A DNA stretch of 64,000 bases, taken from the NCBI RefSeq assembly GCF_000428985.1, contig NZ_AUAZ01000011.1, positions 1 to 64,000 of the forward strand, written 5' to 3'. Position 1 is the first letter of the stretch. Every line of letters starts with the position of its first letter. Positions 546 through 28,671 of the stretch are shown in pieces. The notes beneath the pieces are model-generated. The model was not told the DNA's origin. It did no database searches and saw nothing but the letters and a program-made list of their open reading frames with translations. A program made the position numbers and the translations under genes. The stretch comes from Marinobacterium litorale DSM 23545 (GTDB lineage: Bacteria > Pseudomonadota > Gammaproteobacteria > Pseudomonadales > Balneatricaceae).

Positions 546-857
546 ATGCAGAACCAAAAAATCAGAATTCGTCTGAAGGCTTTTGATCATCGCCTGATCG
601 ATTCTTCCGCTCAGGAGATTGTTGATACAGCCAAGCGGACAGGTGCTCAGGTGTGTGGTCCGATCCCACTTCCTACCCGCAAAGAGCGTTACACCGTTCT
701 GATCTCTCCGCACGTCAACAAAGACGCGCGTGATCAGTATGAGATCCGTACGCACAAGCGAGTCCTCGACATCGTTGAGCCGACAGAAAAAACTGTCGAC
801 GCACTGATGAAGCTGGATCTGGCAGCGGGTGTCGAAGTGCAGATCAGCCTCGGCTAA
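546..857 (+). CDS. rpsJ: 30S ribosomal protein S10
   Basis: S10 (NusE) belongs to the 30S head and also acts with NusB in antitermination. The ATG at 546 gives 103 residues starting [19 protein letters not shown], the exact length and start of the family. An in-frame GTG at 537 is possible but adds three residues not seen in homologues. The only SD-like sequence, AGGAAA at 528-533, is 3 nt from the GTG and 12 nt from the ATG, so it does not decide the matter. First gene of the S10 operon. Confidence 0.97.
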
Positions 858-898: not shown

Positions 899-950
899 GT
901 GGAATGCGCCTGAAAAGGGCAGCCATAGTGGGTGACAGCCCCGTACACAA
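899..950 (+). promoter_or_regulatory. 23S rRNA domain I-like element (candidate L4 binding site) before rplC
   Basis: The 111-bp rpsJ-rplC spacer contains a segment that reads like 23S rRNA around E. coli nt 294-345. GTGGAA is followed by a hairpin resembling the rRNA one, then GCCATAGTGGGTGACAGCCC and CCGTACACAA. From 930 to 950 it is identical to the E. coli 23S sequence as I recall it. This rRNA region is known as a target of protein L4, and L4 is the second gene downstream. The element ends 6 nt before the rplC Shine-Dalgarno (AAGAGG, 956-961). I infer an autoregulatory rRNA mimic; a chance rDNA fragment is the alternative. Confidence 0.6.
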
Positions 951-968
951 CTGGCAAGAGGTAAAAAA

Positions 969-6123: not shown

Positions 6124-6447
6124 ATGCGCAAGATTCGTCGCGACGATGAAATCATCGTGATCGCAGGTAAAGACAAGGGCAAGCGTGGCAAAGTCATGCG
6201 CGTCCTGGAAAACGATCGTCTGATCGTGTCCGGCATCAACATGGTTAAGAAGCACCAGAAACCGAACCCGATGGCAGGTCAGCAGGGTGGTATCGTTGAG
6301 AAGGAAGCGGCTATCGCGACTTCCAACGTTGCTATTTTTAACCCGCAGACCAACAAAGGTGATCGTGTGGGCTTCAAGCTGCTTGAAGACGGCACCAAGG
6401 TACGTTTCTTCAAGTCCACCGGCGAGCTCGTCGCCGGAGATAAGTAA
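6124..6447 (+). CDS. rplX: 50S ribosomal protein L24
   Basis: L24 is an assembly initiator that binds the 5' end of 23S rRNA. The product has 107 residues and an N-terminal KOW motif ([20 protein letters not shown]) that fixes the identity. It starts after a 99-bp gap with a terminator-like hairpin, so its output may be set separately from rplN. Confidence 0.96.
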
Positions 6448-11382: not shown

Positions 11383-11462
11383 TGCGCGCCTTCCACGGAC
11401 TAATTGATTAAAACGGTCTCCGAAGCTAACCAAGCCGGGGACGAAGATTTGGAGTACATTGA

Positions 11463-11819
11463 ATGGCCCGTATAGCTGGCGTCAATATTCCTGACAATAA
11501 GCATGCGGTAATTTCTCTGACTTACATTTACGGTATTGGCCGCACGACTGCTCAGCAGATCTGCGAAGCGACCGGCATCGAGCCGACTGTTAAAGTCGGT
11601 GATCTGTCTGAAGAACAGCTCGATAATGTTCGTGGTGAAATTGCCAAGTTGACTGTTGAAGGCGACCTGCGTCGTGAAGTCAACATGAACATCAAGCGTC
11701 TTATGGACCTCGGTTGTTTCCGTGGTCTGCGCCATCGTCGCAACCTGCCGGTTCGCGGTCAGCGCAGCAAGACCAACGCTCGCACCCGCAAGGGACCGCG
11801 TAAGCCGATCCGTAAGTAA
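11463..11819 (+). CDS. rpsM: 30S ribosomal protein S13
   Basis: S13 contacts P-site tRNA and the 50S through intersubunit bridges. The 118-residue product starts [20 protein letters not shown], contains the helix-hairpin-helix region [13 protein letters not shown] and the basic [12 protein letters not shown] tail. First gene of the alpha operon, behind a likely promoter of its own. Confidence 0.98.
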
Positions 11820-24749: not shown

Positions 24750-25025
24750 CGCCGATCTGTCGTGTTGTATCGCCCTTGACTGGTGCGCTCGTGCACTTTT
24801 TTCGTGCGTTCTGTGATGTTCTCGATTGATGGAGGATGAGCGGCAATCGTTATTTCGGGCGCGTTGCTCTCTCTTGGGTCGAAGATGTAACTCACTGAAA
24901 TTAAGGTTAATTTATTTTAGATAAGGGGTAAGCCAGTAACGCCACGACAAAAGGTGGCCCGATACTTGTATCGTCTTTGGTAACCGTACTCTTGGCGATA
25001 CGGCTAACTACAATTTGGAAATAGA
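24750..25025 (+). other. Non-coding stretch before the guanidine riboswitch
   Basis: No gene is visible here. GGTGC/GCACT around 24782-24796 followed by a run of T may be a weak plsC terminator. The section 24895-24945 is A/T-rich. A sigma-54-like element lies at 24955-24970 and a TACAAT hexamer at 25009-25014 has no matching -35 box. Confidence 0.5.
24955..24970 (+). promoter_or_regulatory. Possible sigma-54 promoter of the guanidine operon
   Basis: TGGCCCGATACTTGTA matches the -24/-12 consensus (TGGCACG-N4-TTGCA) at all but two positions. One mismatch, GT for GC at -12, falls on a conserved base. Transcription would begin near 24981, about 45 nt before the riboswitch. Nitrogen control would suit guanidine as a nitrogen source. 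Confidence 0.35.
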
Positions 25026-25150
25026 GCGCTAGGGTTCCGGTCATGCAACTGTTTCAGGCATGACGACTGGTCCGAGAGCACTCGACCTCTCAGCTGGAGC
25101 AGCTTTTGCTCGGCGATGGGTTACACGGCGGGACAAAAGCCCGGGAGACT
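25026..25150 (+). promoter_or_regulatory. Guanidine-I (ykkC) riboswitch
   Basis: The conserved ykkC elements occur in order: GCTAGGGTTCCGG (from 25028), a hairpin TCATGC/GCATGA (25041-25063), CTGGTCCGAGAGC (25067-25079), then ACACGGCGGGACAAAAGCCC and GGGAGA (25123-25148). This RNA class binds guanidinium and turns on guanidine export or degradation genes. It precedes an importer plus carboxylase operon by 86 nt. I see no T-run terminator after it; small hairpins (TTGGC/GCCAA and TTCGG/CCGAA) near the ribosome binding site suggest control of translation or another mechanism. Confidence 0.9.
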
Positions 25151-25235: not shown

Positions 25236-26291
25236 ATGAAGCTTTCTAGCAAAAAAGCCGCAGCACTGGCACTTTCCACAGCCCTTCTTTCCTCTCCCAC
25301 GTTCGCAAAAGACGATTTCAAGATCTGCTGGTCGATCTATGTCGGCTGGATGCCCTGGGCCTATGGTGCCGAAGAGGGGATCGTGCAGAAGTGGGCCGAC
25401 AAGTACGATATCAACATCGACGTGGTCCAGATTAACGACTACGTGGAATCGATCAACCAGTACACCGCCGGTGGCTTTGATGCCTGCACCATGACCAATA
25501 TGGATGCACTGACTATTCCCGCGGCTGGTGGCGTGGACAGCACCGCACTTATTGTTGGTGACTTCTCCAACGGTAATGATGGTGTTGTCCTCAAGGGCAA
25601 AGACTCTCTGGCGGATATCAAAGGCCAAAACGTTAACCTGGTAGAACTCAGTGTTTCCCACTATCTGCTGGCGCGTGGTCTGGAAACCGTCGGGATGTCT
25701 GAGGCCGATGTTCAAGTGGTTAACACCTCCGATGCCGACATGGTTGCTGTTTACGGCACTGACGATGTGACGGCGGTGACCACCTGGAACCCGCTGCTGA
25801 GCGAAATCACCGCCATGCCGGACTCGCATAAGGTATTCGACTCCTCCCAGATCCCCGGTGAGATCATCGACCTGTTGGTTGTTAACACCGATACCCTCGC
25901 GGAAAACCCGAAACTCGGCAAAGCGTTGACCGGCGCCTGGTACGAGATCATGGCTACGATGAGCGGTGAAGGCGCCGATGCCCAAGCGGCCCGTACTTAC
26001 ATGGCTCAGGCGTCCGGCACCGATCTGGCCGGTTACGATGCCCAGCTGGCCAGCACTGAAATGTTCTACACCCCTCAGTCCGCACTGGCACTGACCAACA
26101 GTGAGCAGTTGATGGAGACCATGCAAAACGTTGCGGAATTCTCCTTCGATCACGGCTTGCTCGGTGAGGGTGCGCCGGACGCCGGCTTTATCGGCATTGA
26201 AACCCCGGCCGGGGTCTACGGCAGCGAGAGCAACATCAAGCTGCGTTTTGATCCGACCTATATGCAGATGGCTGCCGACGGCGAACTCTAA
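25236..26291 (+). CDS. ABC transporter substrate-binding protein (probable guanidine importer)
   Basis: The 351-residue product has a signal peptide (hydrophobic core residues 8-20, likely cut after TFA) and the fold of the nitrate/sulfonate/taurine-type (NrtA/TauA) periplasmic binding proteins. An aromatic-rich N-terminal segment, ICWSIYVGWMPWAYGAEEG, probably contributes to a cation-binding pocket. GAAGAGG precedes the start. Its place directly behind a guanidine-I riboswitch and before guanidine degradation genes indicates guanidine uptake; the ligand itself cannot be read from sequence. Confidence 0.88.
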   Translation: MKLSSKKAAALALSTALLSSPTFAKDDFKICWSIYVGWMPWAYGAEEGIVQKWADKYDINIDVVQINDYVESINQYTAGGFDACTMTNMDALTIPAAGGVDSTALIVGDFSNGNDGVVLKGKDSLADIKGQNVNLVELSVSHYLLARGLETVGMSEADVQVVNTSDADMVAVYGTDDVTAVTTWNPLLSEITAMPDSHKVFDSSQIPGEIIDLLVVNTDTLAENPKLGKALTGAWYEIMATMSGEGADAQAARTYMAQASGTDLAGYDAQLASTEMFYTPQSALALTNSEQLMETMQNVAEFSFDHGLLGEGAPDAGFIGIETPAGVYGSESNIKLRFDPTYMQMAADGEL

Positions 26292-26339
26292 TCATCAGAA
26301 GAACCGATACGGGGGCACACGCCCCCGCAGGGATCTTTC

Positions 26340-27158
26340 ATGACACGCATGATCAACAAAACGCCGGGTTCGGTATTGCGGATGTCACTGGGGCTGTTGC
26401 CTTTTGTGCTGATCCTGCTGGTCTACATGGCCGGCTCCGATGCACGGCTGGAGCTGAACCCCAATGACAAGCTGCTGCCCAGCTTTACTCAGATGGGTGA
26501 TGCGATCCACCGAATGGCGTTCGAGCCCAGCAAGCGCACCGGGGAGTACCTGTTCTGGGCCGATACCGGTAGCAGTCTGACCCGGCTGGGGCTGGGGGTG
26601 GCCATCGCGGCGGTGGTCGGTCTGCTGCTGGGGATGGTTACCGGCGCATTACCGATGATCCGCGCCGGAATTTCGCCGTTGCTGACAGTGGTTTCACTGG
26701 TACCGCCGCTGGCGTTGCTGCCGATCCTGTTTATCGTGTTCGGCCTCGGTGAGCTGTCCAAGGTGGTGCTGATCGCCATCGGCATTACACCGTTTATCGC
26801 CCGCGATATTCAGCGCCGCACCGAAGAGATTCCAACCGAGCAGCTAGTGAAAGCCCAGACGCTGGGCGCCAGTACACTGCAGATTCTGATCCGGGTGGTA
26901 CTGCCCCAGCTGATGCCCAAGCTGATCGATGCCGTGCGCCTGTCACTGGGTGCCGGCTGGCTGTTCCTGATCGCCGCTGAGGCGATCGCCTCCACCGATG
27001 GTCTGGGTTATCGCATCTTCCTGGTGCGCCGTTACCTGTCGATGGATGTGATCCTGCCCTACGTGGCCTGGATCACGCTGCTGGCGTTCCTGCTGGATAT
27101 CGCCCTTGCCTGGGTAAGTCGCCGACTTTACCCCTGGAACGTACAAGGAGGCCGCTGA
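26340..27158 (+). CDS. ABC transporter permease (probable guanidine importer)
   Basis: The 272-residue product is an inner-membrane permease of the TauC/SsuC type with about six hydrophobic segments (first at residues 14-32). The EAA-like coupling loop is at VKAQTLGASTLQILIRVVLP. A periplasmic insertion follows TM1. Its stop overlaps the ATPase start as TGATG. Confidence 0.9.
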   Translation: MTRMINKTPGSVLRMSLGLLPFVLILLVYMAGSDARLELNPNDKLLPSFTQMGDAIHRMAFEPSKRTGEYLFWADTGSSLTRLGLGVAIAAVVGLLLGMVTGALPMIRAGISPLLTVVSLVPPLALLPILFIVFGLGELSKVVLIAIGITPFIARDIQRRTEEIPTEQLVKAQTLGASTLQILIRVVLPQLMPKLIDAVRLSLGAGWLFLIAAEAIASTDGLGYRIFLVRRYLSMDVILPYVAWITLLAFLLDIALAWVSRRLYPWNVQGGR

Positions 27159-27931
27159 TGATCGAAGCCAGAAACCTGTGGAAACGCTATGGCGACAACG
27201 TGGTGCTGGAACGGATCAACATGACAGTGGCCGAGGGGGAGTTTGTCACCATGGTCGGCACCTCCGGCTGCGGTAAAAGCACCTTTCTGAAGATGCTATT
27301 GGGCACCGAGTCCCCGTCCAGTGGTGAGCTGTTGCTAGACGGTCAGCCGATCCCGGATGAGCCGGGGCCCGATCGCGGCATCGTGTTCCAGCAATACTCG
27401 GTATTTCCTCATATGACCGTGCTGGAAAACGTGATGGCAGCGAAAGCCTTCGCTCGCAAGGGGCTGACCGGTTACCTGTTTGGCGCAGCGAAGCGTGAGG
27501 CTAAAGAGGAGGCTTGCGCCATTCTGGAGCAGGTGGGTCTGACCCAGGCCTTGAGCAAATACCCTCATGAACTCTCCGGCGGCATGAAACAGCGTCTGGC
27601 GATCGCCCAGGCACTGCTCGGCAAGCCACGGATTCTTTTGCTTGATGAGCCGTTCGGCGCACTGGACCCCGGCATTCGTGCCGATATGCACGAGCTGGTA
27701 CTGAACCTCTGGCAGCAGCACAAACTTACCGTGTTCATGGTCACCCATGACCTGAAAGAGGGCTTCTACCTGGGAACCCGACTCTGGGTATTCGACAAAC
27801 TGCGTCAGGACCCTCAGGCACCTAACGCGTATGGGGCCAGCATCACCTATGACCTGCCGGTGGGGGCGCTGGATCACGCCACTTACGAAGAGATCGACGA
27901 CAACCTGAGACCGGTGGTCAAAGCCGTCTAA
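27158..27931 (+). CDS. ABC transporter ATPase (probable guanidine importer)
   Basis: This 257-residue ATPase drives the importer. Walker A is GTSGCGKST at about residue 38, the signature is LSGGMKQRLAIAQAL, and Walker B is ILLLDEPFGALDP; the switch histidine is in VFMVTHDL. It is of the TauB/SsuB type. It follows the permease with a one-base overlap. Confidence 0.93.
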   Translation: MIEARNLWKRYGDNVVLERINMTVAEGEFVTMVGTSGCGKSTFLKMLLGTESPSSGELLLDGQPIPDEPGPDRGIVFQQYSVFPHMTVLENVMAAKAFARKGLTGYLFGAAKREAKEEACAILEQVGLTQALSKYPHELSGGMKQRLAIAQALLGKPRILLLDEPFGALDPGIRADMHELVLNLWQQHKLTVFMVTHDLKEGFYLGTRLWVFDKLRQDPQAPNAYGASITYDLPVGALDHATYEEIDDNLRPVVKAV

Positions 27932-27954: not shown

Positions 27955-28671
27955 ATGAACGAGATCAAATACGAAACCGAGATCGCCCCCGGCGGGCACT
28001 GGTCGCTGCGGCTGCGCAAAGGCACGCTGATGCGTCTGACCGATATCGACGGCGGTGCCAATGTGGGCATGCTGTTCTATAACCCGGAAAATCTGCTCGA
28101 GCGCTACAACGCGCCGGATACGCTGAAGTGTCAGCACACCTTCAAGCTGACACGCGGTCACTGCCTTTACTCCGATATGGGGCGCATCTTTGCGTCCATT
28201 GTCGAGGACAGCCTGGGCTGGCATGAGAGTGTCTGCGGCAACAGCCACGCCGATCAGGTCGCGGCGCGCTGGGGTAAACGCGATTATCAGGGGGATCGTA
28301 ACGACTGGCACCAGAACGGGTATGACGCCTTTCTGGTTGAGCTGGCGAAGTATGGCCTCACTCGCGCGGATATGGCGGCCAATATCAACTGGTTCAGCAA
28401 GGTTGCCACCGATGCCGAAGGCAATATGGCGCTGGAGCAGGCGCACAGCGCGCCCGGAAGCCAGGTCACCCTGCGTTTTGAGATGGATACATTGGTGCTG
28501 CTGCATACCTGTCCGCATCCGCTCAATACCTCTGATCAGTACCCGCGCAAACCGGTGAAAGTGGAACTGGGTGAGGCGGAGCCGGTGACCGACGATGATT
28601 ACTGCCTGAACTTCCGCCCGGAGAACCGGCGCGGCTTCCAGAACAACGCCCTCTATCATCTGGGCAAATAA
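27955..28671 (+). CDS. Carboxyguanidine deiminase subunit (urea carboxylase-associated protein 2 type)
   Basis: The 238-residue product is the larger of two related proteins once called urea carboxylase-associated proteins (DUF1989). In characterised guanidine systems the pair (CgdA/CgdB) removes ammonia from carboxyguanidine to give allophanate. Conserved residues visible are the [14 protein letters not shown] block, the cysteine and histidine in [20 protein letters not shown], and HESVCGNS. Which letter it deserves I leave open. AAGGAAACGAG precedes the start. Confidence 0.85.

Follow-up and report, generated by a model that had tools for sequence, protein, structure and literature searches.

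A near-literal copy of a 23S rRNA domain I junction precedes rplC in Marinobacterium litorale and its relatives and is a candidate L4 operator within the S10 operon

Sequence comparison shows that the mRNA upstream of the rplC ribosome binding site in Marinobacterium litorale can form the same junction as a part of 23S rRNA domain I, the H19-H20 part. We propose, with a probability of roughly three in four, that this element is a cis-acting ribosomal protein leader within the S10 operon, namely a translational operator that L4 would bind as an rRNA mimic and by which it would repress rplC, rplD and the genes beyond while sparing rpsJ. A first-pass annotation of the window, by which we mean the whole 64,000-nt stretch of DNA that was analysed, had suggested that a near-literal 23S mimic ahead of rplC might be regulatory. 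Our analysis supports this reading; that L4 is the ligand we infer.

The element lies on the forward strand between rpsJ (S10, 546..857; NCBIfam equivalog match 546-854), which is upstream of it, and rplC (L3, 969..1607; TIGR03625), the first gene 3' of it. The gap between the rpsJ stop codon (855-857) and the rplC ATG at 969 extends from 858 to 968 and has the 111 nt that had been annotated; equally, rplD (L4, 1619..2224; TIGR03953), which would encode the repressor, is indeed the second gene downstream. Overall, the flanking genes were assigned by NCBIfam to S10, L3, L4 and L23. A search of the whole draft genome with the covariance model of bacterial large-subunit rRNA (RF02541) gave one match, at 899-950 of the window (E 1.3e-6, 28.5 bits), aligned to model positions 332-382, which correspond to E. 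coli 23S nt 294-344. This bears out the annotation, which had read about 50 nt of the gap as 23S-like near nt 294-345. In the same search the match stopped at 899 and 950, with no further 23S sequence flanking the element. A local Rfam scan returned the identical interval (E 1.7e-5) with 23.2 bits, less than the gathering score of 50 that RF02541 sets for the whole gene. The cmscan alignment displayed the same junction as 23S rRNA: a short closing stem, GAA, the hairpin H19, CCATAG, the hairpin H20 and GUA. The sequence and fold of the junction are thus common to the element and to LSU_rRNA_bacteria (RF02541, 332-382), from which the element differs in being a short copy within mRNA instead of an rRNA gene, and in the length and pairs of H19. 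By blastn, bases 1-57 of the 62-base query matched E. coli 23S at 82.5%, and both E. coli hits listed were annotated 23S. Identity from 930 to 950, as the annotation had it, was complete, 21 of 21 bases being those of E. coli 23S nt 324-344. Element-like places occurred in 5,375 of 5,426 E. coli genomes at a median of 7 per genome, which fits the seven rRNA operons of E. coli. Because the RF02541 search of the assembly found no 23S gene in the draft genome of M. litorale itself, the comparison was made with E. coli and 30 relatives.

A model built from the element (R1) matched 899-948 (E 5.3e-15), its only match in the M. litorale genome. Based on the RF02541 and R1 matches, we delimit an rRNA-like element at 899..948 on the forward strand. 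It is equivalent to E. coli 23S nt 294-342 in domain I, a region that we take to be the junction of helices H19 and H20. Its closing stem P1 pairs GTGG (899..902) with ACAC (945-948), the innermost pair in the window being a non-standard G-A. Within P1 follow the hairpin H19 (905..921), variable in length and with covarying pairs, the junction block GCCATAGT (922..929), the counterpart of 23S nt 316-323, the hairpin H20 GGGTGACAGCCCC (930..942), whose GGGT was found in 122 of 122 sequences, and GTAC together with the remaining P1 3' strand (943..948; GTAC in 103 of 122). The junction block covers four of the six bases, 320-325, at which L4 presumably cross-links to 23S rRNA. Upstream of P1, a hairpin termed P0 (866..893) pairs GCGC at 866-869 with 890-893; it is present in the minimum-energy fold, and its sequence is not conserved. 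A stem adjoining P1 with a score of at least 8 was found in 53 of 116 flanks, compared with 14.7 expected from mononucleotide-shuffled 40-nt flanks. On the other side, the rplC Shine-Dalgarno sequence AAGAGG (956..961) begins 5 nt after the end of the 23S match, so that the close apposition that had been annotated stands, while the spacing itself, given there as 6 nt, is one less. The distance from the end of P1 to the Shine-Dalgarno sequence has a median of 3 nt (n = 121) and that to the rplC ATG a median of 15 nt with a standard deviation of 2.3 (n = 119), whereas the distance to the rpsJ stop drifts (standard deviation 13.4, n = 107). The element is tied to the start of rplC and not to rpsJ.

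The annotation had made its reading depend on retention of the element in close relatives. In a first set of 19 genomes, L3 was found in 16, including M. litorale, and the element preceded rplC in all 16; hence, every one of the 15 relatives whose rplC could be read has kept it. A strict pattern, in which GGGT, CC[CT]GT[AG]C and finally the start of rplC had to fall in defined windows, was present in 162 of the order's 244 genomes. Among good genomes the count was 149 of 218, and by genus 71 of 113; a reversed-pattern control gave 0 in every row. Thirty of the 82 pattern-negative genomes were examined, and L3 was readable in 25 of them. Nine of these carry a variant element, in which a hairpin is lengthened or the motif reads CCCATAC, CCCTTAC, CCCGTAT or CCCTTGC; the other 16 have no element, which is therefore dispensable. 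In G017, which is pattern-negative, the element is present with a long insert in H20. Across a class-wide sample, the pattern was restricted to three of 274 genomes, M. litorale and two others of its order. R1 with strict filters matched in 61 of these 274 genomes, 58 of them outside the order, and the 27 out-of-order matches that were fetched from the 58 genomes (L199-L225) all lay inside 23S genes. A search for relocated copies with R1 covered 24 genomes, among them the 16 without the element. Five of the 16 gave matches; the six fetched (L187, L190-L193, L196) were all inside 23S genes, and one further match was in G312. The other 11 gave no R1 match at all, not even in 23S. When presence and absence were mapped on an L3 tree of 63 rows (15 absent; L051, L053, L054 and L075 left out), nine changes were needed compared with 13.6 after shuffling, on a tree with 32 of its 60 inner branches open. 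The L3 of family f9 is closest to PDB chain 7unr_D; for the L3 of family f8, in which the element was absent from the one genome read, the nearest entry is 8rd8, followed by 6v39. We take these structures to come from Pseudomonas aeruginosa, Psychrobacter and Acinetobacter, respectively, and on that ground we infer that the order is GTDB Pseudomonadales, including Pseudomonas and Halomonas. Two side observations were made in these genomes. In Halomonas olivaria (L018, 4940-4980), the rplC start region seems to be one base short compared with relatives, which leads to an early stop and is perhaps a sequencing error. In L187 (490-810), 5' of the 23S gene of an order genome without the element, a tRNA-like sequence precedes two degenerate copies of itself, in which the middle part has, by eye, been replaced or lengthened.

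For the analysis of covariation, 152 upstream regions were reduced to 137 distinct ones; after removal of 15 that have no element, 122 spacers with 96 distinct elements remained. The rRNA junction is kept across all 122 spacers, with P1, a covarying H19, GCC[A/G]TAG and H20. H19 ranges in length from 7 to 51 nt and occurs in 83 distinct sequences. With its pairs anchored on the conserved blocks and not on a fold, pairs 1 to 5 were complementary in 100, 93, 85, 87 and 96% of the 83 distinct sequences, against shuffled means of 85, 77, 72, 61 and 86%, and for each of the five pairs 0 of 2000 shuffles was as high, a comparison in which the shuffles overstate independence because the H19 sequences are related. 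Over 27 gapless sequences, 97.6% of cells were paired (89.2% after shuffling), 28 cells were doubly changed (5.0 after shuffling) and in eight pairs both partners had changed, against a mean of 3.2 after shuffling; the covariation score was 0.303, compared with at most 0.073 for slid structures. Compensatory changes in the fold, which the annotation had named as a check, are therefore found both in the 27 sequences and in the H19 test over 83. P1 has four standard pairs in 80 of 122 sequences and three or more in 118, non-standard pairs numbering 10, 1, 4 and 31 of 122 from the outermost to the innermost, which is then G-A; the second pair underwent a compensatory change from U-A to A-U in alignment A2. 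The H20 stem is neutral as evidence, neither for nor against, because its GGG/CCC never varies in alignment A2; the last six bases of H20 are AGCCCC in 112, AGTCCC in 6 and CCCCCT in 4 of the 122 sequences.

The unpaired bases are nearly fixed as well, with AA in 120 of 122 sequences and the CC and AG of GCC[A/G]TAG in 122 of 122. One contact within the junction, between 922 and 939 (23S 316-333 by alignment), deviates from G-C in six of the 122 sequences, and in six out of six both sides have changed, giving A-U; these exceptions fall in families f1, f7, f189 and f214. A-U at 316-333 also occurs in two of 30 host 23S genes (L183, L185), in hosts whose mimic does not have A-U. The contact is supported by this joint change but not proven, because RNAalifold offers an alternative in which its second base (939) is paired inside H20. 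Given no structure, RNAalifold recovered H19 and H20 but not P1, and minimum-energy folds of the 122 elements contained P1 in 59, H19 in 105 and H20 in 115. Folded alone, the element of the window was no more stable than shuffled sequences (z -0.35 and -0.47). The structural evidence is comparative; the ordinary stability of the isolated element and the incomplete recovery of P1 count against our proposal.

Several variants of the element were seen. A long insert occupies the H20 loop at L016, L057 and L155, with the junction kept, and at the first two loci it looks by eye like a hairpin. In family f186 (L106, L107, L134, L156), a divergent subtype, the element has GTATAAC, its H19 is very short and its 3' side reads CCCCCTGTGCAGG; P1 pairs 1 and 3 are non-standard in the register used. 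At L051, L053-L056, L067 and L070, the normally fixed CCCGTAC is replaced by CCCATAC, CCCTTAC or CCCTTGC in an otherwise preserved element, and the 23S read in three hosts of such variants (G346, G519, G329) has CCCGTA.

In the mechanism that we propose, L4 exceeding the free 23S rRNA would bind the mRNA copy. The bound copy would be fixed beside the Shine-Dalgarno sequence, so that the 30S subunit could not start on rplC, and the genes from rplD on would fall as well by translational coupling. Once 23S rRNA is synthesised, it would draw L4 away and rplC would open. Judging from its position next to the Shine-Dalgarno sequence, a repressor sitting on the junction would occupy the landing place of the 30S subunit, and S10 would escape L4 control because rpsJ lies upstream of the element. 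Given a ribosomal protein operator, L4 is the strong favourite as its ligand, because of what is known from E. coli and because of its presumed cross-links at 23S 320-325, which would lie inside the most constant stretch, 316-327; 23S nt 294-344 is, we assume, the L4 site. In E. coli, L4 represses the S10 operon via a leader that is outcompeted by the 23S site, according to the accessible parts of two sources (PMC10931766; PMC7186457).

An operator of the same type could have another ribosomal protein as its repressor, uL24 before L3, but we consider this unlikely given that the constant stretch 316-327 contains the presumed L4 cross-links, while those of uL24 presumably lie at about 23S 99-107. 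In favour of uL24, rplX (6124-6447) belongs to the same gene cluster as the element, and the accessible part of PMC2672003 describes uL24 as an assembly initiator that binds near the 23S 5' end; the same part places L3 at the 23S 3' end, and L4 is the known regulator of the S10 operon in E. coli (PMC10931766, accessible part). Less likely still is a structured spacer that has no protein ligand and serves as an RNase processing site, a translational enhancer or an mRNA stabiliser: the extra hairpin P0 often found upstream would suit such a role, but the constraint on the unpaired junction bases and on the contact 922-939 would be needless for a plain stem. A transcription attenuator of the sort that makes up one part of the S10 leader in E. 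coli seems very improbable, since the element abuts the Shine-Dalgarno sequence and, by eye, neither a T-run nor a terminator hairpin stands between it and the ATG, even though L4 of E. coli also acts on transcription (PMC10931766, accessible part).

The annotation had itself offered a stray rDNA fragment as the alternative. A stray or recently transposed fragment without function would explain the near-literal 23S sequence and its identity to E. coli over 930-950, yet it is contradicted by conservation at one position across the order, by covariation and by the tight, fixed spacing to the start codon, and also by the relation of the mimic to host rRNA. The host's own 23S was readable beside the mimic in 30 genomes, 15 of which have the standard 49-nt element; in these 15, the mimic is on average 78.6% identical to its own 23S and 77.1% to that of other hosts, with 22 of 5000 permutations as high. 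We have rejected the stray fragment and give it the least weight of all the readings, hardly any. Tracking of host 23S by gene conversion, which was also considered, would leave at most a faint signal in this comparison. The mimic is not bound to follow peculiarities of its host: G338 has GCGATACAGGG in the 23S but GCCATAGCGGG in the mimic, and the closing strands of G375 and G403, ACAG and TATGT in the 23S, are GTGT and ACAC in the mimic. From this weak tracking we conclude that the element is ancient and has been passed down independently, being linked to host rRNA faintly at most. As a tentative scenario, which we consider possible but less likely than not, a piece of 23S domain I may have been copied into the rpsJ-rplC gap in an ancestor of the order and become an L4-sensing operator by rRNA capture, not convergence; the junction and the 316-333 contact would have been kept while the stems diverged from host rRNA, S10 (NusE) would have stayed outside L4 feedback, and the element would have been lost several times.

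The S10 leader of E. coli and other enterobacteria imitates the L4 site of 23S loosely, whereas the copy described here is near literal. That leader precedes rpsJ, a placement that the element does not share, as it sits in the rpsJ-rplC gap and does not include rpsJ in its reach. Common to the two would be control by L4, for which a 5' mRNA structure and 23S domain I compete (accessible parts of PMC10931766 and PMC7186457). In the accessible part of PMC10931766, the E. coli leader acts on transcription and translation, whereas we propose a translational operator, and conservation of the E. coli type is shown there for enterobacteria, Haemophilus and Vibrio but not Pseudomonas. A survey of 20 leaders (PMC7247131, accessible part) has an L4 candidate for Archaeoglobi only, predicted ahead of rplC, rplD, rplW and rplB, for which L4 is considered the likeliest ligand; it belongs to an archaeal lineage and is likened to our element by description only. 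L4 is not among the best rRNA-mimic leaders named in that part, which are those for L20, eL15, S15 and S4. In L1 leaders, the S8/spc operator and S15 three-way junction leaders, the mRNA likewise resembles the regulator's rRNA site (PMC10931766, accessible part), although other proteins and other rRNA sites are involved. Like ribosomal protein leaders, the element is a conserved structured RNA 5' of a ribosomal protein gene, and its resemblance to rRNA is seen for 23S nt 294-344; it would work like a leader of the rRNA-mimic kind and probably is one. Both in the window and at 11 positive loci, no cis-regulatory family of Rfam 15 exceeded its gathering score at the element. An overlap with the glycine riboswitch was discarded, its 14.1 bits being at chance level against a gathering score of 110. 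We found no description of the element in the literature searched, from which most subscription papers were absent, nor in the accessible parts of the papers cited above and of PMC2704228, PMC2864571 and PMC8545117; for Pseudomonas, no other feedback element of the S10 operon was found described in the literature searched.

The element is thus a candidate for L4 feedback in an order that probably includes Pseudomonas and Halomonas, and if the proposal is true, this feedback switch would curb overproduction of ribosomal proteins. The rRNA mimicry is unusually literal, with the junction contact preserved by paired changes, and recognition of 23S by L4 becomes testable on about 50 nt. If the proposal holds, S10 should be uncoupled from the other genes of the operon. 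The 122 distinct spacers, some with a longer H19 or H20, form a natural series in which the needs of the ligand could be mapped.

Elsewhere in the window, the alpha operon ribosome binding site (RF00140) was detected at 11427-11495 with 38.3 bits, compared with a gathering score of 38. A Guanidine-I riboswitch (82.9 bits) was detected at 25018-25149, just 5' of an ABC-transporter-like gene set (25236-27931), after which a urea-amidolyase-associated-like gene begins at 27955; we presume these gene names from the translations.
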